DNA of 64,000 nt from Peptococcaceae bacterium (GTDB lineage Bacteria; Bacillota; Desulfotomaculia; Desulfotomaculales; Desulfocucumaceae): the NCBI GenBank assembly GCA_023512435.1, contig JAILZP010000003.1:85708-149707 (forward strand), in the 5' to 3' direction. The translations under genes were made by a program, and so were the position numbers. Below the pieces are notes generated by a model, which made no database searches, was not told the DNA's origin, and saw only the letters and a program-made list of their open reading frames with translations. Below, piece after piece: positions 20,758-56,427 of the stretch (its first letter is position 1; every line of letters begins with the position of its first letter).

Positions 20758-20786
20758 TTGACATGATGTGGGCCCAGTGTTATTAT
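20758..20786 (+). promoter_or_regulatory. Sigma70-type promoter of the tandem cobalamin riboswitches
   Basis: TTGACA (20758-20763), 17-nt spacer, TATTAT (20781-20786). Near-consensus, and ~18 nt before the first riboswitch's P1 stem. Confidence 0.8.
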
Positions 20787-20803
20787 GGGTTAAAATTGAA
20801 AAT

Positions 20804-20978
20804 TCGGGACAAGTGATTCTACTTGTTAAAGTAGAACTTAAAAGGGAAGCCGGTGCGATTCCGGCGCGGTCCCGCCACTGTGAAGGGGAGCCCTTCTGCA
20901 TGACGCCACTGGGGAGGCACATGCCGGGAAGGCGCAGAAGGGGCAATGAACCTGAGCCAGGAGACCTGCTTGTTCCGG
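20804..20978 (+). ncRNA. Cobalamin riboswitch 1 (of a tandem pair)
   Basis: Adenosylcobalamin-type aptamer. The conserved B12-box region is seen: GAAGCCGGTGCGATTCCGGC, then GCGGTCCCGCCACTGTGA, and the 3' element GAGCCAGGAGACCTGC. P1 is formed by CGGGACAAG (20805-20813) with CTTGTTCCG. It is followed by its own intrinsic terminator, and then by a second full cobalamin riboswitch with no gene between. When the ligand binds, transcription should stop. Confidence 0.95.
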
Positions 20979-21058
20979 TCCTTACGGGCGTGCCCACGAC
21001 GGATGGGAAAGAGGTCCCGGGCTTGATTCATATTCCGGGAAGCAAAGCCGGGTTTTAT

Positions 21059-21089
21059 CCCCCTGCGGACATGGGTGCGGGGGGTTTTT
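21059..21089 (+). terminator. Expression-platform terminator of cobalamin riboswitch 1
   Basis: CCCCCTGC (21059-21066) pairs with GCGGGGGG (21077-21084), one G-U, followed by TTTTT. Upstream GCTTGATTC..AAGCAAAGCCGGG sequences could form the alternative fold. Confidence 0.75.
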
Positions 21090-21120
21090 AATTTACGGGC
21101 CGGCCCGGACAATTTAATAT

Positions 21121-21295
21121 TTATAAAACGGGTGCCTTATTTCAGGACGGGCTTAAAAGGGAAGCCGGTGCGATTCCGGCGCGGTCCCGCCACTGTGAAG
21201 GGTAGAAGTCCCGCACTTTGTCACTGGACGACATTTCCGGGAAGACGCGGGGTGCTTCGATGATCCTGAGCCAGGAGACCTGCCCGTTTTATACG
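21121..21295 (+). ncRNA. Cobalamin riboswitch 2 (tandem copy)
   Basis: A second complete aptamer. It repeats the core GAAGCCGGTGCGATTCCGGC and GCGGTCCCGCCACTGTGA exactly and has GAGCCAGGAGACCTGC. P1 pairs ATAAAACGGG (from 21123) with CCCGTTTTAT. The variable peripheral arms differ from copy 1, so the duplication is old or partly converted. Its terminator lies just before cbiZ. Confidence 0.95.
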
Positions 21296-21363
21296 AACCA
21301 TTACCTACGGGCGATAGGGAGGGTTGATGTTTGTGTTGTTTGCACCCAGCTGCAAGGGATAGA

Positions 21364-21395
21364 ACCCCCGGCCTCCCGCAGGCCGGGGGTCTTTA
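21364..21395 (+). terminator. Expression-platform terminator of cobalamin riboswitch 2
   Basis: ACCCCCGGCCT (21364-21374), loop CCCGC, AGGCCGGGGGT (21380-21390), then CTTTAG: a perfect 11-bp stem 33 nt before the cbiZ start. The T-tract is short. Confidence 0.75.
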
Positions 21396-21427
21396 GTCGG
21401 CAATTTTATATGCGGGAGGAAGGTGCT

Positions 21428-22144
21428 TTGCCGGACAAACTTCTGGTTTTTGGAGGGCAGGTTCCCATCCACGGAATAAGATGCTGTGTCTACCGCCATT
21501 CGACGTTTGCCGTTTCGTCGGAGAGGCCGCTCAACGTGGTCAGTTCCGCCGTGTTGGGAGGGAATTTGAGGGAGGCCGAACACATAATCAATCACTCCGT
21601 GGACGAGGGATACAACGGCAGCGATCCAGAGGAGGATCTCAAGCAGGTGGCGCTGCGTCTGGGTTTAAGGGGCAACGTTGTAGGAATGATGACGGCTGTA
21701 CGCGTTAAGCACACCGTGTTAAGACAGGGGAGGCAAAAAGACCTTTTGGTGGCCGCCTTTTGTACGGTGGGCACCGGCAACCCGGGGGTGGCAGGGTTGC
21801 CGGCCGGGAAGGTGCAGCAACGGTACAAGCCGGGCACCATCAACATTATTTTGCTGATTGACGGGAATTTGACCGGCGCCGCCATGGTGAACGCCGTGAT
21901 AACGGCCACCGAAGCAAAAACCAGGGCTTTGTTCAAGGCAAGAATCAGCCTGCCAGGAGGTGAGCCGGTTACAGGCACCACCACTGACGCCATTGTTGTG
22001 GCCTGCACGGGCAGGGGGGATCCCCTGCGCTACGCCGGGACGGCCACAAGCCTTGGGTATTTGATAGGAAAAACCGTTTACAGTGCTGTTTTGCGCGGAA
22101 TCGAGGGGTATTTGTCAAGGCATGGCGGCGGGGGACAGGGGTGA
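21428..22144 (+). CDS. cbiZ: Adenosylcobinamide amidohydrolase (CbiZ)
   Basis: 238 aa. CbiZ removes the lower-ligand side chain from cobamides/adenosylcobinamide so imported corrinoids can be rebuilt. Family features: NVVSSAVLGGN near the start, the AVRVKHTVLRQGRQKDLLVAAFCTVGTGNPG stretch, TINIILLIDGNLTGAAMVNAVITATEAKTRAL and GTTTDAIVVACTGRGDPLRYAGTATSLGYLIG. ATG 21410 is in frame, but GGGAGGA lies 7 nt before TTG 21428, so TTG is used. It directly follows two cobalamin riboswitches and heads the ECF operon, indicating corrinoid remodelling after uptake. Confidence 0.93.
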   Translation: MPDKLLVFGGQVPIHGIRCCVYRHSTFAVSSERPLNVVSSAVLGGNLREAEHIINHSVDEGYNGSDPEEDLKQVALRLGLRGNVVGMMTAVRVKHTVLRQGRQKDLLVAAFCTVGTGNPGVAGLPAGKVQQRYKPGTINIILLIDGNLTGAAMVNAVITATEAKTRALFKARISLPGGEPVTGTTTDAIVVACTGRGDPLRYAGTATSLGYLIGKTVYSAVLRGIEGYLSRHGGGGQG

Positions 22145-22244
22145 AGGGCCATCGCTGTCCATCCAATCAATTCGCCACACGCGCAGGATGCTTCAGGGCG
22201 GGCATGGATCCAAAAACGCCGGGATCGAGGTGTTTAAACTTAAA

Positions 22245-24809
22245 ATGGGCAGACATGGAATTAATTTTCGCTATCTGGCGATTATGCTGGCATTATGCCT
22301 TCTCACCGGACTGGCGGCTCCGTTCGGACTGTCCGGCGGGGCTGCGGCCGCGGATCAAACGCCGGCGTATTCAGCCGCAGAGATGGCCGGCAAAGCCGTT
22401 GACTTTATCAAGCAGAAGTACAGGGCCGGGGAGAAAGCGGACGGTTACGCCGTCTTCGTGCTGACCCTGGCCGGCGAGGACCTGTCGGCGCCGGAATGGG
22501 TCTATGGCGGCAAGACCCTGAAGGATTCGGTGCTGGATTCCGTTTATGCAACATTAAGCGATCCGTCTTCCGCCGGGACGAAGGACGTAGCCCTCCAACT
22601 GCTGGCGGCAAGCCGGTGGGCCGGCGGGGATCAGGCCGACCAGCTGGCGGCCATCCTGGCGGGGCGGCAGAAGGATAACGGCGCCTTTGACGACAACGTC
22701 TATGTTGATATGCCGGCCTATGAGGCGCTGGGCAGGGCCGGGCGGATCAGCGTGATCAACGCCGTATACGCCCGGGGCTATATTCTGGGCAGCCAGTGCA
22801 ACACGGCCGGGGACAATTACGGATCCTGGGGCGGCACATGGGCCGGGGTGTTTTACCCTGACTTTATGACCACGGCCCAGGCTGTCCGGGCGCTCACGTA
22901 CCTGCCCGGAGCCGGCGGCGATGAGGCTGTCCAGGCGGCCGTGGCCAAGGGCCTTGCCTACCTGAAAGGCTTGCAGCAGGCGGACGGCGGCGTCTATTCC
23001 GCCTGGGACGACCCGGCCGTGGACAACTCCGAGTTAATCCGCACCCTGAACAGGCTGGGTGTGGATCCCGCTTCCGCCGCCTGGAAAAACTCCGCGGGCC
23101 TGACCCCGGCGGACTACCTGCTTAACAAGAGCATGAACCAGGACGGGAGTTTCGGTTCTGTCGGAAACGTCTTCTGCGCCGCCGAGGTGCTGGACGCGCT
23201 TCTGACGGTGAACGGGCAGGGCGGCCCCGGTGGAGGCGGCCAGCCGCCGGCGGAGGAAGACCGGTGCAGTGTCGGCGTGGCGGTGGTCGGCCAAAGCGGG
23301 GATCTGCTTTTCGGTCCGGACAGCGTCACGGTGAGCAAGTCAGGCAGGTGGGGACTCACGGCCCTGGGGGCGCTCCACGCCACGGGACTGCCGTACGAGG
23401 AGGACGGCGGTTTTGTCAGGAGCATAGCCGGGCAGGCCAACAGGGGGATGAACGGCTGGATGTACAAGGTTAACGATACGGTGCCCGCGGTGGCGGCGTC
23501 GTCCAAACCGGTGGGCGGGGGAGACCGGGTGATCTGGTGGTACAGCAAGGATATGAATTTCTCAGGCCCCACCTGGGACAGCCTTCTTAAGCCGAATGTT
23601 TCCGTTCAGCCGGATCCGCAGACGCCGGCCGGCCCCAAGGAGCAGATCGGGCTGCTCCCCGCCGCCCTGCGGGCTTCGGACGGTGCCCTGGCGGAGCTGG
23701 AAAAAATCGTCCGGCTTAGCCCCAATGAAATGGAAGCAATGTTGGGCACCCCGGATGAACAGTCCGGGGCCGTGGCCGTGGCCGTGGCAGGCAGCTTACG
23801 GCCTCCGGACCTGGCCGCCATTGCCGCTTTGAAAAAGGAGCTGGACCAAAATGCGGTGGACCTGGTTAAAAAGGTGGCGGCCGGTTCGGGGGGCGCTCTC
23901 ACGGACGCGGGGGCCGAGGTTGCCCTGGTCATTCCGGCCGGGGCGCTTGGCCGTGACGTGGAAATAACCGTTAAAGAGACGGCTGCCGGCAGCGGCGCCG
24001 GGACCACGGCACCGCCCGGTTTCCGCCTGGTGTCCGCCGTGTACGACTTTGGGCCGGACGGGACTTCTTTTGCCCTGCCGGCTACCCTGATCATAAAGGT
24101 GGCCGTCCCGCCCCTGGTCAGGCCGGAAAATCTGGCCCTGGCCCGGTACGATAAACCCACCGGCAAGTGGATGACCATCCCGGCGGTGGTGGATGCGGAC
24201 AGGGGATTGATCCTGGCCATGGTCCGGCACTTCAGCCATTACGCAGTATTCGCCGGGGAGCCTGTGAAACCCTTTGCCGACGTTACCGCTGATTCTTTCG
24301 GCTGGGCGAAGGAACCCGTGGAGAAGCTGGCCGGGGCCGGGATTGTCGCCGGAGTGGACGGAACGCATTTTGAGCCGGCCCGGGCGGTGACCAGGGCGGA
24401 ATTCGCCGCGTTGCTGGTCAGGGCGCTGGGCCTGCAGGCGCAGCCCGGCGCCGCCCCTCCCTTCAACGATGTACGCCCCGGCGACTGGCATTCCGGGGCG
24501 GTTAGCGCGGCCCACGCCGCCGGGCTGATCGCGGGCTGCGGTGACGGCACTTTCCGCCCGGACAGCGCCGTCACCAGGGAGGAAGCGGCGGTTATGCTGG
24601 CAAGGGCCATGAAACTTCAAGTCGCGGAACAGAAACTGCCTTTCGCCGACGGGGACAGGGTTGCCTCCTGGGCCAGGGCCGGCGTTGCGGCCGTGGCGGC
24701 CCAGGGACTGATCAGGGGTTTCCCGGACGGCTCCTTCCGGCCGGATGCCGCGGCCAGCCGGGCCCAGTGCGCGGTGACGGTTTACCGGATGCTGGCAGGC
24801 GAGAATTAA
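22245..24809 (+). CDS. SLH-anchored intrinsic-factor-like protein: alpha/alpha-barrel repeats + DUF4430 (transcobalamin-like) + 3 SLH domains
   Basis: About 854 aa from ATG 22245 (GTG 22230 also possible). Signal peptide ~1-37. Residues ~45-335 are prenyltransferase/squalene-cyclase-type helical repeats (KNSAGLTPADYLLNKSMNQDGSFGS is one), the fold of the N-terminal domain of intrinsic factor. Residues ~355-470 are DUF4430, with GMNGWMYKVNDTVPA and GDRVIWWYSKDM. A beta region with VALVIPAGALGRDVEITVKE follows (~575-670). Three SLH repeats end the protein (PFADV..WAKEPVEKL, PFNDVRPGDW, PFADGDRVASW). The domain order repeats human intrinsic factor/transcobalamin plus a cell-wall anchor. It lies between cbiZ and the ECF genes under cobalamin riboswitches; corrinoid capture is inferred. 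Confidence 0.88.
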   Translation: MGRHGINFRYLAIMLALCLLTGLAAPFGLSGGAAAADQTPAYSAAEMAGKAVDFIKQKYRAGEKADGYAVFVLTLAGEDLSAPEWVYGGKTLKDSVLDSVYATLSDPSSAGTKDVALQLLAASRWAGGDQADQLAAILAGRQKDNGAFDDNVYVDMPAYEALGRAGRISVINAVYARGYILGSQCNTAGDNYGSWGGTWAGVFYPDFMTTAQAVRALTYLPGAGGDEAVQAAVAKGLAYLKGLQQADGGVYSAWDDPAVDNSELIRTLNRLGVDPASAAWKNSAGLTPADYLLNKSMNQDGSFGSVGNVFCAAEVLDALLTVNGQGGPGGGGQPPAEEDRCSVGVAVVGQSGDLLFGPDSVTVSKSGRWGLTALGALHATGLPYEEDGGFVRSIAGQANRGMNGWMYKVNDTVPAVAASSKPVGGGDRVIWWYSKDMNFSGPTWDSLLKPNVSVQPDPQTPAGPKEQIGLLPAALRASDGALAELEKIVRLSPNEMEAMLGTPDEQSGAVAVAVAGSLRPPDLAAIAALKKELDQNAVDLVKKVAAGSGGALTDAGAEVALVIPAGALGRDVEITVKETAAGSGAGTTAPPGFRLVSAVYDFGPDGTSFALPATLIIKVAVPPLVRPENLALARYDKPTGKWMTIPAVVDADRGLILAMVRHFSHYAVFAGEPVKPFADVTADSFGWAKEPVEKLAGAGIVAGVDGTHFEPARAVTRAEFAALLVRALGLQAQPGAAPPFNDVRPGDWHSGAVSAAHAAGLIAGCGDGTFRPDSAVTREEAAVMLARAMKLQVAEQKLPFADGDRVASWARAGVAAVAAQGLIRGFPDGSFRPDAAASRAQCAVTVYRMLAGEN

Positions 24810-24876
24810 AGGGCGGCCCGCGCTGCCGGAAAAAGGCGCGTGTTTCCCGGTTGCCCCCGGGCGGGGAGTGAGCTTT

Positions 24877-25599
24877 TTGAAGAGGAAATTAATCTATGTT
24901 GTGTTGTTTTTGATAGTGACAGCCAGCATAATGGGACCGGCCATTTACGCCGGTAGAATGTCCGGCCTGAAACAGGCGGCGGATCGTCCGGCGGGCGGCG
25001 AAGCGGCCGGCCCGGCGGCAGGGGGGCGGGCATCCACTTACAGTGCGGCCGAAAACGGAGTCACGCCTGACCGGTCCGCCGCGCCGCGGGCGGATCACAG
25101 CCCTTCGGCCGGGAACACGGCCGGCCGGAGGGATGACCCGGCCGGCGCCGCCGGACAGGGCGGCGTCCAGCCGGCACGGGGGCCGGCGGCCGGACCGCCC
25201 GGCGGCGCGGAGGAGGGCGGGTGCACAGTCGGCATCGCCGTGGTGGGCATGAACGGAGAGCTGCTGTACGGGCCGGGGAACGTTGCCCTGGCCGGGAAGA
25301 ACACGTGGGGAGTCACGGCGCTGGGCGCGCTGGACGCCACCGGCCTGCCCTATACCGTGTCCGCCCGCTGGCCGGGGTTTGTCGAGGCCGTTGCCGGACA
25401 GCGCAACAAGGGGCAGGCGGGGTGGATGTTCAAGGTGAACAATGAAGTCCCGCTGGTTGCCGCCGGTCAAAAAACGGTTAATCCCGGGGACAAAGTGATC
25501 TGGTGGTACAGTAAAAGCATGGGTGACTCCGTGCCGGACTGGGACGGCCTGGTCGGGCAAAGAGGAGGAGTCAACAGCGCTGACGGCGGCAGCCGGTAG
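24877..25599 (+). CDS. Membrane-anchored DUF4430 (transcobalamin-like) protein
   Basis: About 240 aa. N-terminal signal-anchor (KLIYVVLFLIVTASIMGPAIYA), then a long Pro/Gly/Ala-rich low-complexity linker (~35-110), then one DUF4430 domain (~115-235) with GGCTVGIAVVGMNGELLYGP, KGQAGWMFKVNNEVP and GDKVIWWYSKSM. It closely resembles the DUF4430 domain of the preceding protein. TTG 24877 has CGGGGAG 9 nt upstream; GTG 24868 overlaps the SD. It directly precedes EcfT, so it may pass ligand from the surface protein to the transporter (inference). Confidence 0.85.
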   Translation: MKRKLIYVVLFLIVTASIMGPAIYAGRMSGLKQAADRPAGGEAAGPAAGGRASTYSAAENGVTPDRSAAPRADHSPSAGNTAGRRDDPAGAAGQGGVQPARGPAAGPPGGAEEGGCTVGIAVVGMNGELLYGPGNVALAGKNTWGVTALGALDATGLPYTVSARWPGFVEAVAGQRNKGQAGWMFKVNNEVPLVAAGQKTVNPGDKVIWWYSKSMGDSVPDWDGLVGQRGGVNSADGGSR

Positions 25600-25622
25600 C
25601 TGTTTTCAGGAGGTGGCGGCCG

Positions 25623-28219: not shown

Positions 28220-28228
28220 GGTACGGGT

Positions 28229-28972
28229 ATGGGCGAAGGCATTCCCGGCGAAAGGCCGAAAACAGCGCGGAAAATTCTTTTTCCCCTTTTTCTGATCGTT
28301 ATCCCGGGGCTGCTTTATGCCGGCATAAAGCAGGACAATTTCCTGGCCGGGCAGGGTTGGGGGCTGCTTTCGGCGGAAATGGTGCTGGCGGCCCTGGCCT
28401 TGTTCTACTGGGGATTTGAGCGGGGCGGGGCCTCCAGCCGGGAAGCAGCCTTTATCGCCGTGCTGGGGGCCGCCGCCGCCGCGGGGCGCATCCCCTTCGC
28501 CGCGCTGCCCAACGTGCAGCCCACCACGTTTTTGGTGATTGTTTCAGGCTTTGTGTTCGGCCCCAGGGCCGGATTCATGGTTGGGTCCACAGCGGCCCTG
28601 GTTTCCAACTTTTTCCTGGGCCATGGTCCCTGGACGCCCTGGCAGATGTTCGCCTGGGGCCTGGCCGGAGCTTCGGCCGGTTTGATCAGAATGGTTTATC
28701 CCGGCATAGGGACATTGGGCATGTCGGCTTTCAACTTTATCTGGGGCTACCTTTTCGGCTGGATCATGAATCTGTGGTTTTGGACGTCCTTTATCCAGCC
28801 GCTGAACTGGCAGTCCTTTCTGGCCTCATATGCGGCCAGTTTCTGGTTCGACACTTTCCACGCCGCCGGGAACGCCGCCTTTTACCTTGTCTTCGGGTCC
28901 AGTTTTACAAAGATTTTAACGCGCTTCCGGAGGAAGCTGAAGGTTAGGATTGTTGAAAACCGGGATTGTTGA
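28229..28972 (+). CDS. ECF transporter substrate-binding S component, predicted corrinoid
   Basis: 247 aa, ~6 TM helices. An S-component-type stretch is seen: PFAALPNVQPTTFLVIVSG, then FGPRAGFMVGSTAALVSNFFLGHGPWTPWQMFAWGLAG. It completes the ECF module 9 nt after the ATPase gene. Its substrate cannot be read from sequence. The cobalamin riboswitches, cbiZ and DUF4430 proteins in the same operon point to a corrinoid, as for CbrT-type ECF systems. A precursor such as cobinamide or dimethylbenzimidazole remains possible. Confidence 0.85.
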   Translation: MGEGIPGERPKTARKILFPLFLIVIPGLLYAGIKQDNFLAGQGWGLLSAEMVLAALALFYWGFERGGASSREAAFIAVLGAAAAAGRIPFAALPNVQPTTFLVIVSGFVFGPRAGFMVGSTAALVSNFFLGHGPWTPWQMFAWGLAGASAGLIRMVYPGIGTLGMSAFNFIWGYLFGWIMNLWFWTSFIQPLNWQSFLASYAASFWFDTFHAAGNAAFYLVFGSSFTKILTRFRRKLKVRIVENRDC

Positions 28973-29012
28973 CAAGGTCTCAGGAATGGATTACCATAAA
29001 GGGTGTTGGGCA

Positions 29013-29156
29013 TTGAGCAAAAATAAGCCGCTGACCACCAGAGAAGCGAACCTGATTCGGATTATCCGCACCACCAGATACGGCGAAATAAAAATAATCA
29101 TCCAGGAAGGGCAGCCCGTGAGGGTTGAGGAAATTAAAAAATCCATCAAGCTTTAG
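29013..29156 (+). CDS. DUF2292 (YezD-like) mini-protein, copy 1
   Basis: 47 aa from TTG 29013 (AAAGGG ~9 nt before); longer starts at ATG 28986 or 28950 are in frame. The core RTTRYGEIKIIIQEGQPVRVEEIKK matches the YGxIxIxIQxGxPVxVE pattern of DUF2292. A second copy at 42617 has the same core, the same Lys-Leu end and a similar leader region. Function unknown. It follows the ECF S component and precedes the first 24-nt motif/terminator element. Confidence 0.75.
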   Translation: MSKNKPLTTREANLIRIIRTTRYGEIKIIIQEGQPVRVEEIKKSIKL

Positions 29157-29163
29157 GACTAAT

Positions 29164-29214: not shown

Positions 29215-29229
29215 CAGGAGTGATGCTGC

Positions 29230-35855: not shown

Positions 35856-35898
35856 ACTGGACCGCTTTATACAGGAAATACAGAACATAGGCAGTATA

Positions 35899-42102: not shown

Positions 42103-42131
42103 TTGAAACAAAGGGAAATAAATGGTAAAAT
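42103..42131 (+). promoter_or_regulatory. Promoter before motif copy 3 and cobalamin riboswitch 3
   Basis: TTGAAA (42103-42108), 17-nt spacer, TAAAAT (42126-42131), ~35 nt before motif copy 3. Confidence 0.7.
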
Positions 42132-42215: not shown

Positions 42216-42248
42216 TTCCCGGCCGGCCTTTTAAAAACCGAATAACTG

Positions 42249-42425
42249 ATTGCAGGGGTTCCAGGAAACATTTCCGGGTTAAAAGGGAACCGGGTGCGAA
42301 TCCCGGGCGGTCCGGCCACTGTATGCGGGGAGCGACCTTTCATAATGCCACTGCCAGATGATTGTTCCGGGCGGGAAGGCGGAGGGGAGCGGCGATCCGC
42401 GAGCCAGGAGACCTGCCCCTGCAAT
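42249..42425 (+). ncRNA. Cobalamin riboswitch 3
   Basis: Core GGGAACCGGGTGCGAATCCC and GGTCCGGCCACTGT, 3' element GAGCCAGGAGACCTGC. P1 pairs ATTGCAGGGG (42249-42258) with CCCCTGCAAT (42416-42425). It controls the DUF2292/DUF4430/propeller gene series through the terminator at 42524. Confidence 0.93.
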
Positions 42426-42523
42426 GCGGCTCAAACCTTCCGAGGAAAGGCGTGAAGCTAGCGTTAGCTCGCCGCCCGGCCAACAGCGACCGGTCTGCGG
42501 CGGCACCTGCGTCAGCAGACAGC

Positions 42524-42775: not shown

Positions 42776-42832
42776 GACATCCGACAACGGATAAAATTCA
42801 CAGGGCAAAAAATTAAAAAAGGAGGGGATAAC

Positions 42833-43684: not shown

Positions 43685-43734
43685 GAATATTTTAAAACCT
43701 GAAATCTGATCCCTGCCCTGTGAATTTATCTCCA

Positions 43735-43763
43735 CATCCCGGCCGTGTTTACAGGCCGGGATG
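43735..43763 (+). promoter_or_regulatory. Intergenic hairpin between two surface-protein genes
   Basis: CATCCCGGCC (43735-43744) and GGCCGGGATG (43754-43763) pair perfectly over 10 bp with no T-tract. A likely mRNA-stability or partial-attenuation hairpin. Confidence 0.6.
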
Positions 43764-43790
43764 TGTGCATGTGTCAAGGAGGTGCGAATG

Positions 43791-46700
43791 ATGACAAAAT
43801 TGAGAAATAATGCAAGCATTTTTTTAATCCTGGCTCTGGTGTTGACCTCTCTGTCCCCGGCCTGGGCCTTTGATCTGAAAGTGGAACCGGTTAGAGCAAG
43901 CTACCGGGGCGGAGAAAGCGTCACCGTGTCCGCGGACGTTTACGGGGCCGGCGGCGGATTCAGCTGGTTCCTCACCGACTGGGAGTCCCGCACCGCCGCT
44001 CTGGACGGCGAGGAAAAATCCATCACCTTTTCCCTGCCGGAGAATAATACCGGAGCCATGGCGATTGCCGTGGTGGAAGCCGTGTACGGCGGCGAAAGGG
44101 GCAGCATCGATATCGCCGTTGAGCCTGCCGAAGCGCCTTTCGCCGCTTTGGCAGAAGAAGGACCGCTGCGGATAACGGATCTGTGCCCGGCCAACGGAGC
44201 CACGGATGTGTCAGTGAATACAGCTGTCTATATCCGGTTTAACAAGCCGGCCAATATTGTCAAAGCAATGCCTGTTTTTAATGGCCATATAGGGATAGCT
44301 GGCCAGCAATATTCGTTGCAGCCCAATGAGGATAGGACTTTGTGGTCTCTGGCTCCGGGCAGCATCGTTTTGGCACCCAAGACAACATATACCGTTTCCA
44401 GCTTTATGAAAATCACCGATCCCGAGACAGGAGCGGTTTTATATAATTTCCCGGCGCCTGCTTTCCCGGCCTGGCAGTTCACTACGGCAGAGGAGGGCCC
44501 CTCCGGCATAGAGATCACCGACTGCCCCCGGCGGCTGCAGGTGGGGCAGTCCTACCCCCTGAAGGCGGTGGTGAAGGACAAAAAAGGGAACGTCCTGGAC
44601 TGGCCGGTGGACTGGGAGGTGGTCAGCATGAACGGCGGCGGGGCCACAGTGGATGCGGCGGGCAACCTCACCGGCACCGTGCCGGGTTACCTGCGGCTGG
44701 TCGCCCGGGCCCGGGACTACCCGGCTGTTTGTGACGATAACGAGTTCGATAATCACGTGGAGATCCGCCGGAATTTCGACCGTCACCTGCTGGAAGTATG
44801 GGTCACGGAGTTGCGAGAGAAATATAATTCCCCCCCACTGGTGGGGGCGGACGGCACCATTTACCTGACCACCGGGGGCGGAAACCCCGTCACCCGGGCC
44901 TATGACAGCGCCGGCAACAAACTGGAAGGCTTTCAGGAAATCGACGGCTGGGTTGCCGTGCTGGCCCGGATCGGGGGCCGGGAGTACCTGCTGGGGATCA
45001 AAGATAGAAAAATATGCGCCTACGATCCCGTTACCGGCCGGCTGGAATGGCAGTCCCAGGCTGTGTCGTCCGGTCTGGGCAATATCTGTGTGGACACGGA
45101 GGGCAACATCTACGCCAGCAGTATGAACGACGGCAAGGTCTACGCCTTCAGCCTGGACAGCGACCGCTACCTGTGGAGCTATTTCGCGGAAATAAACGTT
45201 TATTCAAAGCTCACCGTCGGCCCCGACAACCTGCTCTATGTGGTGGGGGGGGATAACAAGGTCTTTTGCCTGGACAGCCGGGGATCGCTCCGGTGGCAGT
45301 ACACCACCCCTACCCTGACGCAAAATTGCAATATTCCCGCCGGGGTGGAGGTGGACAGCGCCGGAAATGTCTATTTCCTGGAAAACGTGGATCCATACAA
45401 CGGCGATGAATTCAACATCTATTCCCTGAACCCCGGAGGCGGCCTGCGCTGGAGCAAAAACAAACAGAACAGCGCGTTAAAGAACCTGTTTGTGGACGAG
45501 GACGACACTCTCTACGTCACTATCACAGACTTGTCGAACAAGACCGAAAAGCTGACCCGGCTCAACCGGGAAAACGGCGAGGTGGAGAAGGAATTTGGCG
45601 TCTACGGGTGCGACCGCTTTATGCGCAGCAACGACGGCTACATTTACACCAACAAGTTCATCTTCAACGACAACCTGGAAGTGGTGGGCTATGCCGACCT
45701 GGAGGCGGTGGGCTACGCCGACGATTATTACCGCGACCTGCCCTACATGAGTTATTCCAAACTGGCCCTGTGCCCCGACGGTGCCCTGGTCAGGGTGGTG
45801 ATATCGTCCGATAAAGCCGTGGCCTTGGAGAAGGTCACCCTGGTGGACAGCGCCGGCGCCGTGCCCTCGGCCGTTGAAGTGGGGGAAAGCGAGATCACAC
45901 TGATCCAGGGGGGCACCCGGGACATATTCGCCAAGGTTAAGGACAGCCGGGGGTACCTCCTCCCCTTCCAGGCCCTGATCTACCAGACAGGCGACCCTGC
46001 TGTGGCCGCCGTGGACCAGGCCGGCAGGATCACCGCCGTGGGTGCGGGGGACACTGTCATCACCGTCAAGGTAAAGGATCACGAGAATGTTTCCGCCGCC
46101 GTATCCCTCCACGTACTGCCGCCGGGGGAAGTCACGGATATCTATTTTGTCCCCCAGCATGGCGGATCGCACGGCGGAGTTGACCTGGAGGAAAGGATAA
46201 CCTCGGTCAACGGCGTGGTGTGGGAAGAGATGGTGGTCCAGCTGGTGGTGCGGGATCAGCACGGAAATGTGCTCCAGGGCCTGCCCGTCAAGTGGACCCT
46301 GTCGGACAGCTCGGTGGTGCAGATGTATAACTATGCCGGGGGCGCGATGGGCGGTGTTTCCAAGTCCATTGCGGTGCTGAACGGCCTCAAGGAGGGCACC
46401 GCCGTCCTGCAGGCGGAATTGGACGGCTACGTCGGATTCAGCGCCCAGTTGGCGGTGCAGATCGGGCCGGCCCCTTACGAGATCCTCTGGACCCTTCCCA
46501 TAGAAGGGGACTGGGACGATAAAATCGCCTACCACACCCAGGCCGCCGACGGCACCCTGTTCATCGCCAACAAAAGGAAGCTCAAGGCCGTCAGCAGCGC
46601 CGGGGCCGTCCTGTGGGAACAGAATATCTCGGACAAATACGGCTTCATGCCGGCCATTCCGGTGGTGGACGACAGCAACGTTTATGTATACGATATCAGC

Positions 46701-47834
46701 GGCCTCAACCTTTCCCTGACGGCCCTGAACCGGCGGGACGGCAGCCTGCGCTGGAGCTTCGCCGGCGGCCTGGGCTCCGTGGAGCAGATCCGGGCCGGGG
46801 CCGGCGGTGTTTACCTGCTCTCCGACGGAGGCAAGCTGTACGGACTGGACCGGGATAGCGGCAGCCCGTTGTGGCAGTCTCCCCTGAGCCTGGGGGGCGG
46901 GGCTGTTACCCTGGGCCTGTCCGCCGGCGGGGAATTGTATTATGCCCGGGGAAGACAGGTTTTCCGGGTGCCGGGTGACGGCAGCGCCGGCCTGCTGTAT
47001 ACCGCTGAAGAGGGGGCGGCCCTGGTCATTGAGGAAATCACCGCCGCGGGCGATATCATCATGGAGAAATCCGCCGGCGGATCTTACAGCATTATTTCCG
47101 TGGGGCCGGAAGGGACGAAGAACTGGGAGAAGCCGGTGAAAACGGCGGTGGAACTGAGCAGCGCCGGCGGCGTTATCTATGCCGTCACCAGGGAGAAGTC
47201 AAATCCCACGGTCTACTTTATCAAAGAAGACGGCACGGTTCAGGCCGAGCGTGCGCTGACCACTCCCTCAACCACAGAAACAATACACAGCGATAGCCGC
47301 ACCCGCCCCCTGGCCGGATCCGACGGCATTGTCTATATTCCCCTGAACTGTCTCTATGCCGTCAACGCCGCCGACGGCCGGCAGCTCTGGACCGCGGAAT
47401 TCAAGGACGGCTTTTTCAAGCGGTCCCCCAAGAGCGCCACCCTGGATGAAAACAATGTGCTCTACCTGGCCTGCGATGATTACGGCTTCGTCGCCATCAA
47501 GAGCAAGGAGGCCGGGGTGGCCGATGAAAGCGGTTTTTACATCGACATCTCGGGCATAGGCAGCCTGAGGGGCAACACCTACCGGAACCTGACCTTCCGG
47601 GTCAAGAACAACAATAATACCGCCGGGGAGATCCGGGTGGTGGTGGCCCTGGAGGAGACCAGGGGGGGCAGCGTTCTGAGCTATGCCGCCGCCGCCGACC
47701 GGCTGGACGCCGGCGCGGTCAAGTCCTATAACTTCGGTGTGCATATTCCCGGCGCAGGCAATTTCCGGATCAGCATCAAGCTGCTGGACCAGTCCAATCA
47801 AGTGCTCACCGGAAAGATGCTGCCGGTGAGCTAG
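43791..47834 (+). CDS. Large exported Ig-like / PQQ-type beta-propeller protein
   Basis: About 1347 aa; ATG 43791 is 7 nt after AAGGAGGT (43788 also possible). Signal peptide ends PAWAFD. Ig-like domain (~25-115), SbsA-type Ig (ITDLCPANGATDVSVNTAVYIRFNKP, ~125-230), another Ig (~240-310), a PQQ/BamB-like propeller (~310-670; repeats like ICVDTEGNIYASSMNDGKVYAFSLDSDRYLW), Big2 (~690-785), a further Ig (~790-885), a second propeller (~890-1220), and a CARDB-like C-terminus. No anchor seen. Under cobalamin riboswitch 3, 108 nt after the DUF4430 gene. Confidence 0.8.
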   Translation: MTKLRNNASIFLILALVLTSLSPAWAFDLKVEPVRASYRGGESVTVSADVYGAGGGFSWFLTDWESRTAALDGEEKSITFSLPENNTGAMAIAVVEAVYGGERGSIDIAVEPAEAPFAALAEEGPLRITDLCPANGATDVSVNTAVYIRFNKPANIVKAMPVFNGHIGIAGQQYSLQPNEDRTLWSLAPGSIVLAPKTTYTVSSFMKITDPETGAVLYNFPAPAFPAWQFTTAEEGPSGIEITDCPRRLQVGQSYPLKAVVKDKKGNVLDWPVDWEVVSMNGGGATVDAAGNLTGTVPGYLRLVARARDYPAVCDDNEFDNHVEIRRNFDRHLLEVWVTELREKYNSPPLVGADGTIYLTTGGGNPVTRAYDSAGNKLEGFQEIDGWVAVLARIGGREYLLGIKDRKICAYDPVTGRLEWQSQAVSSGLGNICVDTEGNIYASSMNDGKVYAFSLDSDRYLWSYFAEINVYSKLTVGPDNLLYVVGGDNKVFCLDSRGSLRWQYTTPTLTQNCNIPAGVEVDSAGNVYFLENVDPYNGDEFNIYSLNPGGGLRWSKNKQNSALKNLFVDEDDTLYVTITDLSNKTEKLTRLNRENGEVEKEFGVYGCDRFMRSNDGYIYTNKFIFNDNLEVVGYADLEAVGYADDYYRDLPYMSYSKLALCPDGALVRVVISSDKAVALEKVTLVDSAGAVPSAVEVGESEITLIQGGTRDIFAKVKDSRGYLLPFQALIYQTGDPAVAAVDQAGRITAVGAGDTVITVKVKDHENVSAAVSLHVLPPGEVTDIYFVPQHGGSHGGVDLEERITSVNGVVWEEMVVQLVVRDQHGNVLQGLPVKWTLSDSSVVQMYNYAGGAMGGVSKSIAVLNGLKEGTAVLQAELDGYVGFSAQLAVQIGPAPYEILWTLPIEGDWDDKIAYHTQAADGTLFIANKRKLKAVSSAGAVLWEQNISDKYGFMPAIPVVDDSNVYVYDISGLNLSLTALNRRDGSLRWSFAGGLGSVEQIRAGAGGVYLLSDGGKLYGLDRDSGSPLWQSPLSLGGGAVTLGLSAGGELYYARGRQVFRVPGDGSAGLLYTAEEGAALVIEEITAAGDIIMEKSAGGSYSIISVGPEGTKNWEKPVKTAVELSSAGGVIYAVTREKSNPTVYFIKEDGTVQAERALTTPSTTETIHSDSRTRPLAGSDGIVYIPLNCLYAVNAADGRQLWTAEFKDGFFKRSPKSATLDENNVLYLACDDYGFVAIKSKEAGVADESGFYIDISGIGSLRGNTYRNLTFRVKNNNNTAGEIRVVVALEETRGGSVLSYAAAADRLDAGAVKSYNFGVHIPGAGNFRISIKLLDQSNQVLTGKMLPVS

Positions 47835-47850
47835 GAAAGGAGGCATACGG

Positions 47851-50800
47851 GTGAAAAGAATAAAATGCCTGGGACTTTTGCTGGCCGTCTTCATTTTCCT
47901 GGCCGGCGCGCTGCCGGCACCGGCGGAGGACATTCTCACCCTGGAGTGGGTGCGGAGCACCAAAAGCGAAGGCAAAGCCACCTGCCACAGTCCCATGGAC
48001 CCTCTGACGGTGGACCGGGAGGGCAATGTCTACGTCTGCAACACCGACGGATATCTTTACGTGTACACCCCGGAAAAAAACCTGAAGTGGAAGGTGAATC
48101 TGGGCCAGTACTCCAGCAACGACTGGCACCTGATGGGATTGGGGCCGGTGCTGGACGGGGAGGGGAACTGCTACATCGCTTCCCGGAGCCGGAAGGTGTA
48201 CAAAATCGACTCCGGCGGCAATGTGGTGCGGGAATTTCTAATGGCCGGAGAGGTGGCGGACGGCACCTCCCCGGTGCTTTCCGCCGACGGCGGCACCCTC
48301 TATGTGGTGACCAGGAGCAGGATCCTCTACGCCCTAAACTCCTCCGACCTGTCCAAAAAATGGCAGGTGCAAATAAAGGGAGGCGGGAATGCCATATCTC
48401 CGGTGATTTCCCCGGACGGCACGGTGGTGGTGGGCTCTAAACAGACCGTCACCGCTGTTACTCCCGGCGGCGAAATCAAATGGGAATATACCCTGCCGGG
48501 GGACAGGGAAAGGCAGCTCTACCAGTATTGGAGCCAGGGCCTGCCCAACAGGGAGAAAAGGATGCAGGTGGACGGCGCGGGCAATATCTATTTTCTGGCC
48601 ATAGTCGACACCGACGGCGACGGCAATGTCGACCAGTACCGCAGTGAGCTGTTCTGCCTGAGATCCGACGGCACTGCCATCTCCTGGCAGAAACCGATCA
48701 ATATCAATGTTTCTGAACCGGCCCTGTATGGGGATACCCTCTATTACTGCACGGCGGACAACAGGCTGCACGCCGTCAACACAGCCGACGGCGGAGACAA
48801 ATGGGAGCTTTACGTCGATGCCGAGGGCACGAGCCTTAGCGATAGAGCCCCTGCCGTGTCCGCCGACGGGAAAATTTATTTCCATATGGGCACCGTTGTG
48901 GGAGTGGTCCGGGATGACGGCGGCACCGGGGTGCTGCTGGGCAAATGCCGGCTGCCCAACAGCAGTTCAAGCTTCGTTGGCAACAGTCCGGTATCCCGGC
49001 TGGGCCCCCGTGGAGAATTCTATGTGGGATACGCGGATGTGAACTATAACTACTGGCTGGCCAAAATTGTGGATAATACTTTTGAACCCCGGCCTGCGGC
49101 AATCGAGATCAGCCCGGAGGAAAAAAATATCACCATGGCCGTGGGGGGATCGTACACCCCGGCCCTGACCCTGCGGGACACCAACGGTGTGGCCATGGAT
49201 AAAGGCGGACTGGTTTTTACCAGCCAAAACCCGGCTGTAATAAGTGCCGCCGCCGGCGTGCTTACGGCCAGGCAGGCCGGCACCGCCGCGGTGACCGTTA
49301 CCCACCCGGATAATGAAGATCTGACAGCGACCATCAATGTTACCGTCCTGGGCTCTTTAAGCGGCAGCCAACTGCGCATTGCCACCGTCCCCCTGGAGGT
49401 TTCCATCGGCCAGACCCTGCCGCTGCAGGCCGGTCTCCTGGCCGCCGACGGGAGCACCGCCATCAAGGGGGAGGCCCTGGAATGGAGCAGCTCCAACGCC
49501 GCCGTGGCCGAGGTAAGCGCCGACGGTCAGCTCAAGGGTATGCGCGCCGGCAGCGCCACCGTGAGGGTGCGTCTGACCAACCACCCGGAGATCGCCGCCT
49601 CAGCCACGGCCACCGTACGGGAGAATATTGTCCGGCGGGTTACTCTGGCGGAAATTAAGGATAAAATCAACCGCACCGTCAGTTACTATAAAAAAGGCGG
49701 AGCCCCGGGCACCGACTGGGCCGCCTTTGCCCTGAACGCCGTGGGCGAGGATCTGAATACCTATGTAACAAATGGCGGCACCTACCTGGACAACCTGGAG
49801 GCCAGGGTTAAGGAGCCCGGTTATTTAGGCTTGATGACCGACTATGAGCGCACCGTCATCGGCGTGGTCTCCGCCGGTGGGGACCCGGCCAATTTCGCCG
49901 CCGATGTGAACGGCGAGAACGGGATGAACCTGCTGGAGAAGATATACAACTACCCCAGCCTGGGCCAGGGGATCAACGCCGCAGTCTTCGCCCTGGTGGC
50001 CCTGGATGCCGCCAACGCCGATATTCCGGCGAATGCGGTGCACAGCCGGGAATCCCTGATCAGCTTCATCCTGAACAACCGGGTCAAAGAGGGCTGGAGC
50101 TACGGCGGCAGCGAGCCCGATCCGGACATGACCGGCATGGCCCTCTACGCCCTTGCCCCATATCGGGACCGCCCGGCGGTGAAAGAAGCAGGGGAGGCGG
50201 CCATCCAGTGGCTCAGCGAGGCCCAGGACGAGGACGGCACCCTGAAGTCCTGGGGCACCAAAAACAGCGAGTCCATCTCCCAGGCCATCATGGGTGTCAC
50301 CGCCTGGGGGGTGGATCCGCAGGGGCCCATGTTCACCAAGCAAAACGGCAACCTGGTCACCGGCCTTTTGGGCTTCTACTTTGAGGACAGCGGCATGTTC
50401 GGGCACCTGTACGGCACTCCCGACCCGGCCATGGCCACCGACCAGGGGCTGGAAGCCCTGGCGGCCCTGCAGCGCTATACGGAAAAGGGCTATTCCGATA
50501 TTTTCTACAAGATCGCCTCCGTCAGCAGCGGCCCCCGGGAAATCACCGCCCTGGAGATCACCCCGGAGGGGCTGGAGATTCCCCCGGGCTGTCAGGTGCG
50601 GCTTCAGGCTTCGGATCAGTCCGGAAGATATGTGGAGAATGACCAGGTTAACTGGTCCAGCAGCAATTCCGCCGTGGCCTCCATCGACGGAACGGGCCTC
50701 CTCACCGCCCATGGACCGGGTAATGTGCAGGCGACGGCCACCCTGCAAGCTGACGGAACCGTGCGGGATACGGTTTCCCTGGAGGTGTTCGGCCAGGACT

Positions 50801-51099
50801 TTGAAACAGCCAGGGTGCCTGATCCCGCCAACCCGTTCGGGGTTGACCGGACCGTGGCCCTGGAGGTAAAAAATGTTTCCGGAGAAAAAAAGACAGTGGT
50901 TATGATCATCACCCTGGTGAACAGAGATACCGGGAAAATGACGCACAGCTCATACGTCACCAGAGAAATTGCCCCCGGCGAGACGGCGGAACTGGCTGGA
51001 GGGGTGAATGCGCCTGAATCCGGCAGTTATCAGGTTAAGACAATGCTCTGGAACGGCTGGGACAAATTAAGGCCTCTGATGACTGCCGTCGAGCAATAA
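47851..51099 (+). CDS. Exported beta-propeller / Big2 / alpha/alpha-barrel protein
   Basis: 1082 aa, GTG start with AAAGGAGG SD. Signal peptide ends APAEDI. PQQ-like propeller ~30-390 (LTVDREGNVYVCNTDGYLYVYTPEKNLKW), two Big2 domains ~410-585, a transcobalamin-alpha-like helical repeat domain ~590-890 (ESISQAIMGVTAWGVDPQGP resembles the 40919 protein), Big2 ~905-985, CARDB-like C-terminus. It combines, in one chain, the propeller of the preceding protein and the alpha domain of intrinsic factor. Confidence 0.82.
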   Translation: MKRIKCLGLLLAVFIFLAGALPAPAEDILTLEWVRSTKSEGKATCHSPMDPLTVDREGNVYVCNTDGYLYVYTPEKNLKWKVNLGQYSSNDWHLMGLGPVLDGEGNCYIASRSRKVYKIDSGGNVVREFLMAGEVADGTSPVLSADGGTLYVVTRSRILYALNSSDLSKKWQVQIKGGGNAISPVISPDGTVVVGSKQTVTAVTPGGEIKWEYTLPGDRERQLYQYWSQGLPNREKRMQVDGAGNIYFLAIVDTDGDGNVDQYRSELFCLRSDGTAISWQKPININVSEPALYGDTLYYCTADNRLHAVNTADGGDKWELYVDAEGTSLSDRAPAVSADGKIYFHMGTVVGVVRDDGGTGVLLGKCRLPNSSSSFVGNSPVSRLGPRGEFYVGYADVNYNYWLAKIVDNTFEPRPAAIEISPEEKNITMAVGGSYTPALTLRDTNGVAMDKGGLVFTSQNPAVISAAAGVLTARQAGTAAVTVTHPDNEDLTATINVTVLGSLSGSQLRIATVPLEVSIGQTLPLQAGLLAADGSTAIKGEALEWSSSNAAVAEVSADGQLKGMRAGSATVRVRLTNHPEIAASATATVRENIVRRVTLAEIKDKINRTVSYYKKGGAPGTDWAAFALNAVGEDLNTYVTNGGTYLDNLEARVKEPGYLGLMTDYERTVIGVVSAGGDPANFAADVNGENGMNLLEKIYNYPSLGQGINAAVFALVALDAANADIPANAVHSRESLISFILNNRVKEGWSYGGSEPDPDMTGMALYALAPYRDRPAVKEAGEAAIQWLSEAQDEDGTLKSWGTKNSESISQAIMGVTAWGVDPQGPMFTKQNGNLVTGLLGFYFEDSGMFGHLYGTPDPAMATDQGLEALAALQRYTEKGYSDIFYKIASVSSGPREITALEITPEGLEIPPGCQVRLQASDQSGRYVENDQVNWSSSNSAVASIDGTGLLTAHGPGNVQATATLQADGTVRDTVSLEVFGQDFETARVPDPANPFGVDRTVALEVKNVSGEKKTVVMIITLVNRDTGKMTHSSYVTREIAPGETAELAGGVNAPESGSYQVKTMLWNGWDKLRPLMTAVEQ

Positions 51100-51170
51100 A
51101 ATGGGAGAGGGCGGCAGGGCTTGCGGGAAAAACCGGCCCCCGCCCGCATTTCAAGACAGGAGGTTGGGCG

Positions 51171-54512: not shown

Positions 54513-54731
54513 GGAAAAGCCGGTCAGTCCGGGTTAAATGTCCGGACCCGGAATTCATCCGTTCCGGGGACGGCTGTAACCGCAATGCCCATGCCGGAAA
54601 CCGCAGGGGTAAAACCACGGCGGCCCTGGTGACGGAAATGTTGGAGAAAAGGCACTGCTGCCAAAAGGGAGTACCCGCCCGGGACGGCATTGCGCGATGA
54701 TAATTGCGCGGCAATATCATAATAAAATAAC

Positions 54732-54760
54732 TGGACAAACCAACCGAAACGGTGTTAAAA
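54732..54760 (+). promoter_or_regulatory. Promoter before cobalamin riboswitch 4
   Basis: TGGACA (54732-54737), 17-nt spacer, TTAAAA (54755-54760). No other element was seen between 54513 and here. Confidence 0.6.
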
Positions 54761-54778
54761 TGAAAATAACCGAATAGC

Positions 54779-54957
54779 CTGTCCAGGTTTCCCCGGCCTT
54801 TGCCGGGGATGAAAAGGGAACCGGGTGCAAATCCCGGACGGTCCGGCCACTGTGAGTGGGGAGCGTCCCCCGTTGATGCCACTGGGTCTGTAATGTCAAG
54901 GCCCGGGAAGGCGGGAGAGACGCCGGGATCCATGAGTCAGGAGACCTGCCTGGGCAG
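54779..54957 (+). ncRNA. Cobalamin riboswitch 4
   Basis: Core GGGAACCGGGTGCAAATCCC and GGTCCGGCCACTGTGA, 3' element GAGTCAGGAGACCTGCC. P1 pairs CTGTCCAGG-type sequence (from 54779) with CCTGGGCAG. Downstream genes encode DppB/DppC-type permeases. Confidence 0.93.
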
Positions 54958-55033
54958 AGAGTAGAGTGTCGCCTTCCGTGGAAAGGCCAGGTGCTTGCAG
55001 GGCAAAGTGTGCAAAGGTGTGCCGCCTTTGAAG

Positions 55034-55075
55034 GGCCCGGCTTTCGTGGAAGAGCCGGGCCTTTCCGATTTTTAA
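55034..55075 (+). terminator. Expression-platform terminator of cobalamin riboswitch 4
   Basis: GGCCCGGCT (55035-55043) / AGCCGGGCC (55053-55061), then TTTCCGATTTTT. The following ~230 bp show no gene; a perfect 8-bp hairpin GAAATGGC-CGAA-GCCATTTC is at 55253-55272. Confidence 0.75.
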
Positions 55076-55310
55076 ACCCAAACTCCATACTTCATTGCAT
55101 TGCCCGGCGGGCGGGCGGCCCGCCGGGAGACACTTTTAAAAGCACGGTGCCTGTCCCGGAGAGCCTCCGGGGCTTGTTCGCACTTATTCTGCATACTTTT
55201 TTCGGGGGGAGAAGGATTTTTATGCCGGGCAGAGAACAGTATATATACACATGAAATGGCCGAAGCCATTTCCTCTTGACGGCAAAAAAAGGCAATAACC
55301 CATAACGCGG

Positions 55311-55360
55311 CCATGAAGGCTATTCTTCCGCGACTGGAAGAATGTGCTTTCATGGTTTTT
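55311..55360 (+). terminator. Second hairpin/terminator before dppB
   Basis: CCATGAA (55311-55317) / TTCATGG (55349-55355) with inner ATTCTTCC / GGAAGAAT pairing and TTTTT following. A second possible stop point between riboswitch 4 and the permease genes, or the end of an unseen short transcript. Confidence 0.65.
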
Positions 55361-55473
55361 GTTATTTAAGCCTTTTTGCAATTTCATCCGGGCGTAAATT
55401 CAGGCACAGCCATGGAGGCCTGGCGTCCTGCCGCAGCGGGAGAGGGTTTTCATGGTTTTTTGTTCTGCGGGAA

Positions 55474-56427
55474 GTGACGGCCATCAAACGGTACCTGCTA
55501 AAACGGCTATTCTATCTTCTTCCGGTGATGCTGGGGGTTTCCGTCATTACCTTCGGGCTGGTCAACCTGGCCCCCGGAGACCCGGCCGAAATCATCCTGC
55601 GCACGGGCGGGGCCGATCCAAGCCGGGAGGCCGTTCTTGCCCTCCGGGAGGATCTGGGCCTGAACGACCCGGTCCATATACAGTACGGCCGGTGGCTGCG
55701 GGGCGTATTCCGTCTGGACTTGGGCAACTCCTTTTGCACCGGCAGGCCGGTGGCCGGGGAGATTCTGACCCGCCTTCCGGCCACCCTTGAGCTGACCGTG
55801 GCGGCATTGTGCTTCATGCTGTTTCTTTCCGTACCTGCGGGGATTCTCGCCGCCCTGTACCGCCACACCGCGGCCGACCACCTGAGCCGGATTTGCGCCC
55901 TGATCGGCGCCTCACTGCCCGGTTTCTGGCTGGGACTCGTGCTGATTTACTGTTTCTCCGTGAAATTGGGGCTGTTGCCGGTGATGGGCCGGGGGGGCTG
56001 GAGACACCTGGTGCTTCCGGCGGCGACCCTGGGTTTGGGGATGGCCGCCGTCTACGCCCGCCTGCTGCGGGCAAGCATGCTGGACGTCTTGAGCCGGGAT
56101 TACATCAAGGTGGCCAGGGCCAAGGGTTTAAAAGAAAAGTGGGTGATTGGGAGGCACGCCCTGAAAAATGCCCTGCTTCCGGTGGTGACCCTGCTCGGCA
56201 TGAGCTTCGGCCACCTGCTGGGCGGGGCGGTAATCGTGGAAACCATTTTCGCCTGGCCGGGGGTGGGGAAATTCGCGGTGGAGGCCATTTTCAACAGGGA
56301 CTACCCGGTGATTCAGGGCTATGCCCTCTTCATGTCGCTGGTGTTTGTGCTGGCCAATCTGCTGGTGGACATCTCCTATGTCTTTATTGACCCGCGCATC
56401 CGCCTGGGAAGGGGAAGACAGCCGTGA
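55474..56427 (+). CDS. ABC transporter permease, DppB/NikB type
   Basis: About 317 aa from GTG 55474; upstream residues of the longer open frame are not family-like. ~6 TM. Family motifs: LLKRLFYLLPVMLGVSVITFGLVNLAPGDP and the EAA-type loop DYIKVARAKGLKEKWVIGRHALKNALLPVVTLLG. This family moves peptides, nickel or related ligands. Placed after cobalamin riboswitch 4, a corrinoid- or cobalt-related cargo is inferred. No solute-binding protein or ATPase is visible before the breakpoint. Confidence 0.88.
   Translation: MTAIKRYLLKRLFYLLPVMLGVSVITFGLVNLAPGDPAEIILRTGGADPSREAVLALREDLGLNDPVHIQYGRWLRGVFRLDLGNSFCTGRPVAGEILTRLPATLELTVAALCFMLFLSVPAGILAALYRHTAADHLSRICALIGASLPGFWLGLVLIYCFSVKLGLLPVMGRGGWRHLVLPAATLGLGMAAVYARLLRASMLDVLSRDYIKVARAKGLKEKWVIGRHALKNALLPVVTLLGMSFGHLLGGAVIVETIFAWPGVGKFAVEAIFNRDYPVIQGYALFMSLVFVLANLLVDISYVFIDPRIRLGRGRQP

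Follow-up and report, generated by a model that had tools for sequence, protein, structure and literature searches.

We analysed a 64,000-nucleotide window (positions 85,708–149,707 of contig JAILZP010000003.1, assembly GCA_023512435.1) from the genome of a Peptococcaceae bacterium (Desulfocucumaceae), which is 88% complete in 80 contigs. Between positions 20758 and 56427 of the window, cobalamin riboswitches precede genes for the corrinoid-salvage enzyme CbiZ, an energy-coupling factor (ECF) transporter and predicted exported proteins with alpha/alpha toroid and/or DUF4430 domains. These proteins, encoded behind cobalamin riboswitches and with the predicted fold of intrinsic factor/transcobalamin, probably bind corrinoids extracellularly and would pass them on to the transporter, which is of the CbrT type. 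The central features, with genes named hereafter by their start coordinates, are:

20794..20987, +, cobalamin riboswitch 1 (tandem), RF00174 118.7 bits (gathering threshold 31.5)
21113..21301, +, cobalamin riboswitch 2 (tandem), RF00174 134.2 bits
21428..22144, +, CbiZ, adenosylcobinamide amidohydrolase, PF01955 206.5 bits, E 4.8e-61; likely TTG start
22245..24809, +, alpha/alpha toroid, DUF4430 and three SLH domains, predicted exported; PF14478 and PF00395 above cut-off
24868..25599, +, short protein of the DUF4430 type, single hydrophobic segment at the N-terminus, PF14478 53.5 bits
25623..26552, +, ECF T component, CbiQ-type, PF02361 45.9 bits
26531..28219, +, ECF A components, one protein with two ABC ATPase domains, PF00005 in two stretches; start approximate
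28229..28972, +, ECF S component, CbrT-like, by phmmer match to 6fnp_A and PF12822
29230..30546, +, predicted lipoprotein, DUF4430 and BcsB-like C-terminal domain; PF14478 above cut-off, lipobox-like start
40919..42016, +, stand-alone alpha/alpha toroid, predicted exported, PF13243 43 bits (cut-off 26.1)
42239..42434, +, cobalamin riboswitch 3, RF00174 133.6 bits
42833..43684, +, Big_2-like and divergent DUF4430 domains, predicted exported, PF14478 17.6 bits (below the cut-off of 23.8)
43761..47834, +, PQQ-type beta-propeller and Big domains, predicted exported, PF13360 E 4.3e-35
47851..51099, +, beta-propeller, Big_2 and toroid, predicted exported, PF13360 and PF02368
51171..54512, +, DUF4430 and three SLH domains, predicted exported, PF14478 36 bits, PF00395 122 bits
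54768..54967, +, cobalamin riboswitch 4, RF00174 124.6 bits

Judged by gene order, the features fall into three apparent transcription units. The first runs from the tandem riboswitches through CbiZ, 22245, 24868, CbiQ, the fused double ATPase, the S component and 29230 to a block at 30527–40746 and the toroid protein 40919. The second comprises riboswitch 3 followed by 42833, 43761, 47851 and 51171. The third consists of riboswitch 4 and, behind it, a NikB/NikC-type permease pair and no DUF4430 gene. Searching the window with the Rfam covariance model gave exactly four RF00174 matches above gathering (118.7–134.2 bits), all on the + strand, and the whole source genome has eight. The four riboswitches, CbiZ and full ECF transporter (T component, two ABC domains, and an S component matching PF12822 and PF07155) listed in the initial annotation were thus all recovered. 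An open frame of 308 amino acids for CbiZ begins within riboswitch 2; its likely start is the TTG at 21428, behind a ribosome-binding-like GGGAGGAAGG stretch.

Seven proteins with a toroid and/or DUF4430 domain are predicted to be exported, given a signal- or anchor-like start judged by eye, where at least six had been proposed. DUF4430 (PF14478) scored above the Pfam cut-off in four of them (22245, 24868, 29230 and 51171), and the toroid (PF13243) only in 40919. By Pfam the toroid of 22245 stays below the cut-off (21 bits against 26.1) and is visible in the structure model described below; that of 47851 is also below it (13.9 bits), and phmmer identified a toroid shared with cassette members. 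The divergent DUF4430 protein 42833 carries a GWKFKVN...W motif, found by eye. The 22245 product is a predicted cell-wall-anchored corrinoid-binding protein, and 24868 a predicted membrane-anchored beta-type domain. A short protein of the 24868 type is paired with a large toroid–DUF4430 protein in many genomes of the class, and homologues of 40919 sit within the cassette in other genomes. UniRef names of several DUF4430 proteins start with 'Transcobalamin-like C-ter'. 22245 has one toroid; in many relatives of about 1,150 amino acids, at least two consecutive segments ahead of DUF4430 align with 22245, a pattern resembling a toroid duplication.

Structure prediction covered 22245 and 29230 among the exported proteins. 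For the barrel and DUF4430 part of 22245 (22335–23582), the AlphaFold2 model reached a predicted local distance difference test (pLDDT) score of 90. A Foldseek search with this model against 350,542 PDB chains returned 747 hits, and ranks 1–15 were all haptocorrin, transcobalamin or intrinsic factor, aligned over 418–462 columns at 12–16% identity. As in these animal carriers, an N-terminal alpha/alpha toroid is followed within one chain by a C-terminal beta-grasp (SLBB, DUF4430) domain, and the best whole-chain match is to the carriers themselves. The structural match of the barrel and DUF4430 pair to the intrinsic factor family, anticipated by the initial annotation, is therefore present in 15 of the 15 top hits. 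Its description of the whole system as intrinsic-factor-like stands for the predicted folds, for the B12-type S component and for the riboswitch co-occurrence presented below. The two domains of the model are not placed as in intrinsic factor, and with no common superposition the root-mean-square deviation over both is about 24 Å. The interdomain linker has a pLDDT below 50, and the model is ligand-free. In the animal carriers, cobalamin is described to bind the beta domain first, whereupon the alpha domain closes, cobalamin being required for the association (PMC11107200). Such two-step closure would allow split pairs of 40919 with 24868 or 29230. 22245 further differs from the animal proteins in its predicted anchoring to the wall by SLH domains, with no receptor-mediated endocytosis.

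Sequence by itself gave no link to transcobalamin and intrinsic factor: none of their chains was found among PDB sequences by phmmer with individual proteins or by the profiles A2, A3 and A4; the best A3 matches fell on the low-complexity linker of that profile. The family tie rests instead on Pfam, on the fold and on the 2007 analysis of Burroughs, Balaji, Iyer and Aravind (PMC1796856). The DUF4430 domain is also matched by PDB 3u7z, a structural-genomics entry from Ruminococcus gnavus named 'putative metal binding protein', which may deserve a B12 test.

Comparing the S component with all PDB sequences by phmmer gave a single significant match, 6fnp_A (CbrT, E 4.2e-14); PF12822 and PF07155 were both just above cut-off. 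The fused ATPase 26531 scored above the cut-offs of TIGR04520 (379 bits) and TIGR04521. The locus thus encodes a CbrT-homologous S component, a T component and two ATPases, as in ECF-CbrT, and by homology the transporter is of the B12 type. The structure 6FNP is that of ECF-CbrT from Lactobacillus delbrueckii, which imports cobalamin and cobinamide with ATP (Santos et al. 2018, PMC5997447). In L. delbrueckii, a single ECF module is predicted to serve CbrT and seven other S components, and the cbrT gene lies within an nrdJ-cbrS-cbrT-pduO cluster (PMC5997447). In the present locus, by contrast, the module is encoded beside the S component and led by riboswitches, with toroid and DUF4430 proteins alongside.

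B12 riboswitches often govern cobalt uptake, the T component and the ATPases are of the CbiQ and CbiO types, and riboswitch 4 heads a NikB/NikC-type permease pair, all of which would suit a CbiMNQO-type transporter for cobalt (or nickel) with accessory binding proteins. The 2007 paper indeed called the CbiO/CbiQ genes 'implicated in cobalt transport' (PMC1796856). Nevertheless, we regard such a transporter as very unlikely. The S component matches CbrT, PF12822 and PF07155 and not CbiM, on which ground the cobalt identity was rejected, and genes 24868 to 28972 are contiguous, leaving no space for CbiN. The names CbiQ and CbiO should not be taken to mean cobalt transport, since no CbiM-type model matched among the locus proteins scanned with the family libraries. 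Moreover, a metal ion would not need a two-domain cobalamin-carrier fold, and the enzyme heading the operon, CbiZ, belongs to corrinoid salvage.

DUF4430 is present in 62 of 113 genomes of the class, and in the 61 besides the source genome we surveyed a region of at most 20 kb surrounding the best DUF4430 match. Riboswitches were counted with a covariance model, R1, built from 19 RF00174 hits, of which 15 come from class loci that are themselves included in the counts. A same-strand riboswitch lies upstream of DUF4430 in 49/61 regions. In nine of the other 12, the contig extends upstream by no more than 2,566 bases, and the remaining three (L066, L068 and L072) have an RF00174 match 12.4–12.7 kb upstream. 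The class regions hold 62 riboswitches against 0.52 expected from the genome-wide density, an enrichment of roughly 120-fold that is approximate because the density derives from RF00174 with stricter filters and the counts from R1. CbiQ, CbiO and S occur together in 47/61 regions, the toroid in 56/61, and all of these with a riboswitch in 37/61, where the CbiO label takes in any close ABC ATPase. The usual order is riboswitch, toroid–DUF4430, DUF4430, (toroid), CbiQ, CbiO-CbiO, S, with the lone toroid differently placed or absent in some cassettes.

The same set was found outside the class, among loci that did not seed R1. Of 85 sampled phylum genomes with DUF4430, 80 regions were analysed, the other five being four for which no coordinates were listed and G300, situated at the beginning of a contig. 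An upstream same-strand riboswitch was found in 58/80, and 82 of 83 riboswitch matches lie on the strand of the DUF4430 gene; together with the class counts, this bears out the expectation that DUF4430 and B12 riboswitches co-occur elsewhere. The S component is present in 65/80 regions, the toroid in 66/80, CbiQ, CbiO and S together in 57/80, and all parts plus the riboswitch in 49/80, while 4/80 have no cassette part. Applied to 14 loci with low R1 scores, Rfam placed 15 of 16 matches in RF00174 above gathering, the exception being the second match in L055. Among named contigs found by the DUF4430 profile alone, 59/77 carry an upstream riboswitch, including those of Moorella thermoacetica, Desulfofundulus, Pelotomaculum and Syntrophomonas wolfei, and 87/87 riboswitch matches are same-strand; some of these contigs duplicate records of surveyed genomes, and the counts are not independent. 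Given this recurrence of the gene set with its riboswitch throughout the phylum, the association of the genes goes beyond chance.

DUF4430 also goes together with the CbrT-like S component. A profile of 20 S components found CbrT-like S genes in 61/113 class genomes: 57 genomes have both DUF4430 and S, five DUF4430 only, four S only and 47 neither, such that S is carried by 57/62 DUF4430 genomes and DUF4430 by 57/61 S genomes. DUF4430 lies within 12 kb of at least 61 of 73 S matches in the class; other kinds of S component may be missed in these counts, because profile A6 was built almost wholly from DUF4430-adjacent S genes. In 7/80 regions outside the class (L165, L173, L186, L198, L204, L205 and L216), a DUF4430 frame of 99–185 amino acids adjoins the S gene. 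No riboswitch, toroid or CbiQ was found near these minimal pairs, L186 being uninformative in this respect as its contig ends 290 bases upstream. At L165 (10334–11207), the S protein (6fnp_A, E 8.6e-12) and a DUF4430 protein that begins with a lipobox-like sequence have overlapping frames. This minimal form supports the pairing of DUF4430 with S.

These data bear on whether the exported proteins take part in uptake at all. ECF-CbrT takes up B12 with ATP, and no carrier is named in the available text of that report (PMC5997447). The transporter could thus act unaided, and the toroid, DUF4430 and SLH proteins could be co-regulated surface-layer or adhesion proteins binding, for example, polysaccharide; SLH repeats, Big and beta-propeller domains and the BcsB-like domain of 29230 are typical of surface proteins. 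However, the combination of toroid and DUF4430 has only animal B12 carriers among its 15 best PDB hits, DUF4430 and the CbrT-like S component co-occur across genomes of the class (57/62 and 57/61), and the minimal pairs place a small DUF4430 gene beside S with no toroid nearby. We consider the unaided transporter improbable. Less probable still is that the proteins keep corrinoid outside the cell for other ends, such as a store or extracellular corrinoid enzymes. SLBB domains are fused to putative extracellular enzymes in Syntrophomonas (PMC1796856), and a reductive-dehalogenase-like frame lies in the window, past a suspected junction. Against this, the operon order recurs with genes for an importer (T, A and S components), and CbiZ stands at its head.

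Capture for import by the CbrT-type transporter is therefore the reading we favour, and we infer the following route, in which export, corrinoid binding, relay, the sense of regulation and the range of substrates are all putative. At low intracellular corrinoid, the riboswitches would permit transcription to continue. The SLH-anchored toroid–DUF4430 proteins and the membrane-anchored DUF4430 proteins would then trap cobalamin or its precursors between toroid (alpha) and beta-grasp (DUF4430) domains; the two domains would belong to a single protein or be contributed separately, by a lone toroid and a lone DUF4430 protein. The captured corrinoid would travel across the wall and the membrane until it reaches the CbrT-like S component, and the T/A/A' module would drive import. 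Finally, CbiZ would cut adenosylcobinamide-type corrinoids, with re-assembly by CobS-type enzymes. We give about even chances to a more specific proposal, that an ECF vitamin transporter fed by dedicated extracellular carriers is the bacterial counterpart, perhaps the ancestral stock, of intrinsic factor, its halves fused (22245) or split (40919 with 24868 or 29230), closing on the corrinoid and relaying it from the wall to S.

The source genome carries CbiD, and uptake would accordingly supplement synthesis; CobS is also encoded, elsewhere in the genome. CbiD is found in 36/62 DUF4430 genomes of the class, the source genome included, against 39/51 others (p 0.047), a weak trend on which auxotrophy was not retained as the reason for the system. 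In the 2007 paper, bacteria with SLBB proteins are described as usually lacking key B12 synthesis enzymes (PMC1796856), in contrast to these counts. Neither the scanned proteins of the locus nor the genome, at 88% completeness, yielded a BtuF-family or Peripla_BP_2 protein, and the BtuF family is likewise missing in the sole same-genus genome. This absence is not general, because 46/62 DUF4430 genomes of the class have a BtuF-family protein, against 27/51 others (odds ratio 2.6, p 0.03); mutual exclusion of DUF4430 and BtuF was rejected.

The central idea has a precedent: B12 scavenging was already proposed in 2007 by Burroughs et al. for bacterial toroid–SLBB proteins in CbiO/CbiQ operons (PMC1796856), and the statement in the initial annotation that no bacterial pathway of this form had been described was wrong as far as prediction goes. 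Their account, which names Desulfotomaculum and Moorella, resembles the present locus in the surface or secreted SLBB (DUF4430-type) domains fused to a toroid, in a second paralogous SLBB protein, and in Ig-like and beta-propeller fusions (PMC1796856). It differs in its cobalt-related wording for CbiQ and in its main text, which is without riboswitch, S-layer, SLH or CbiM (PMC1796856). New here are the CbrT identity of S, the statistics on riboswitches, the fold match across two domains, the predicted anchoring by SLH repeats, the place of CbiZ at the front of the operon and the frequency of CbiD. An experimental test of a bacterial DUF4430/toroid protein was not found in the open-licence PubMed Central literature. 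Surface-exposed B12 capture ahead of a transporter is known from Bacteroides BtuG, a beta-propeller acting with outer-membrane BtuB (PMC6977713); the propellers of 43761 and 47851 are PQQ/BamB-type by Pfam. If correct, our interpretation would link the 2007 prediction of transcobalamin-like scavengers to a type of transporter whose carriage of B12 was demonstrated in 2018, and explain a widespread family still named DUF4430. It would also offer a bacterial relative with which ideas on how the animal B12 carriers arose can be tested and tell how many anaerobic Firmicutes compete for corrinoids.

The remaining features of the stretch concern its regulation and the third unit:

20758..20786, +, promoter-like site, TTGACA-17-TATTAT, 7 nucleotides 5' of riboswitch 1
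21059..21084, +, terminator-like hairpin and T run after riboswitch 1, 9 pairs then TTTTT; predicted expression platform
21373..21389, +, terminator-like hairpin after riboswitch 2, a pattern match, suggestive only
42103..42131, +, promoter-like site upstream of riboswitch 3, consensus match only
54732..54761, +, promoter-like site upstream of riboswitch 4, consensus match only
55474..56427, +, NikB/OppB-type permease under riboswitch 4, NF045470 Opp2B 442.9 bits (cut-off 350); GTG start likely

A sigma-70-like site thus precedes the first riboswitch in each of the three units, by 7, 107 and 6 nucleotides. The first, also a consensus match only, agrees at 11 of 12 positions and has a TG before the second hexamer. 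Riboswitch 4 is also followed by a terminator-like hairpin. Attenuation is a prediction, because terminator-like patterns occur near shuffle level (4 in the stretch, both strands counted, where shuffled sequence gave 2.5 ± 1.4; suggestive only).

The propellers 43761 and 47851 (window 43761–51099), in the operon of riboswitch 3, might form a second capture module; 43761 matches PQQ-type, BamB and designed propellers, among others. The block at 30527–40746, between the DUF4430 lipoprotein 29230 and the toroid protein 40919, contains MoxR, DUF58, BatA and VWA genes and proteins without an assigned family. It looks unrelated to the corrinoid system; MoxR-like frames lie near some other cassettes as well. 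NikB/NikC-type permeases (window 55474–57180) near cobalamin riboswitches, found likewise in two of the 61 class regions (L030 16981–17942 and L034 16222–17066), perhaps serve cobalt supply.

Downstream, window 57170–57200 is possibly a contig misjoin or rearrangement point. The NikC match (+) ends here at frame residue 252 (211 of 258 model positions), and GC content rises from about 0.60 to 0.69. The match of an opposite-strand gene (56807–59425) ends at the same position, five positions before the model end, its frame continuing without a stop. Reductive dehalogenases are corrinoid enzymes, and the reductive-dehalogenase-like frame at 59437–60951 (−) matches TIGR02486 (200.6 bits, cut-off 160.35) over residues 311–496 only; its tie to the corrinoid system is uncertain because it lies past the suspected junction. 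At the other end of the window, where positions 1–20500 were given a partial annotation with Pfam, a TRAP transporter (DctP/Q/M) is followed by LamB/YcsF and carboxyltransferase-domain genes (13616–19190), which we take to be a 5-oxoprolinase-like set.

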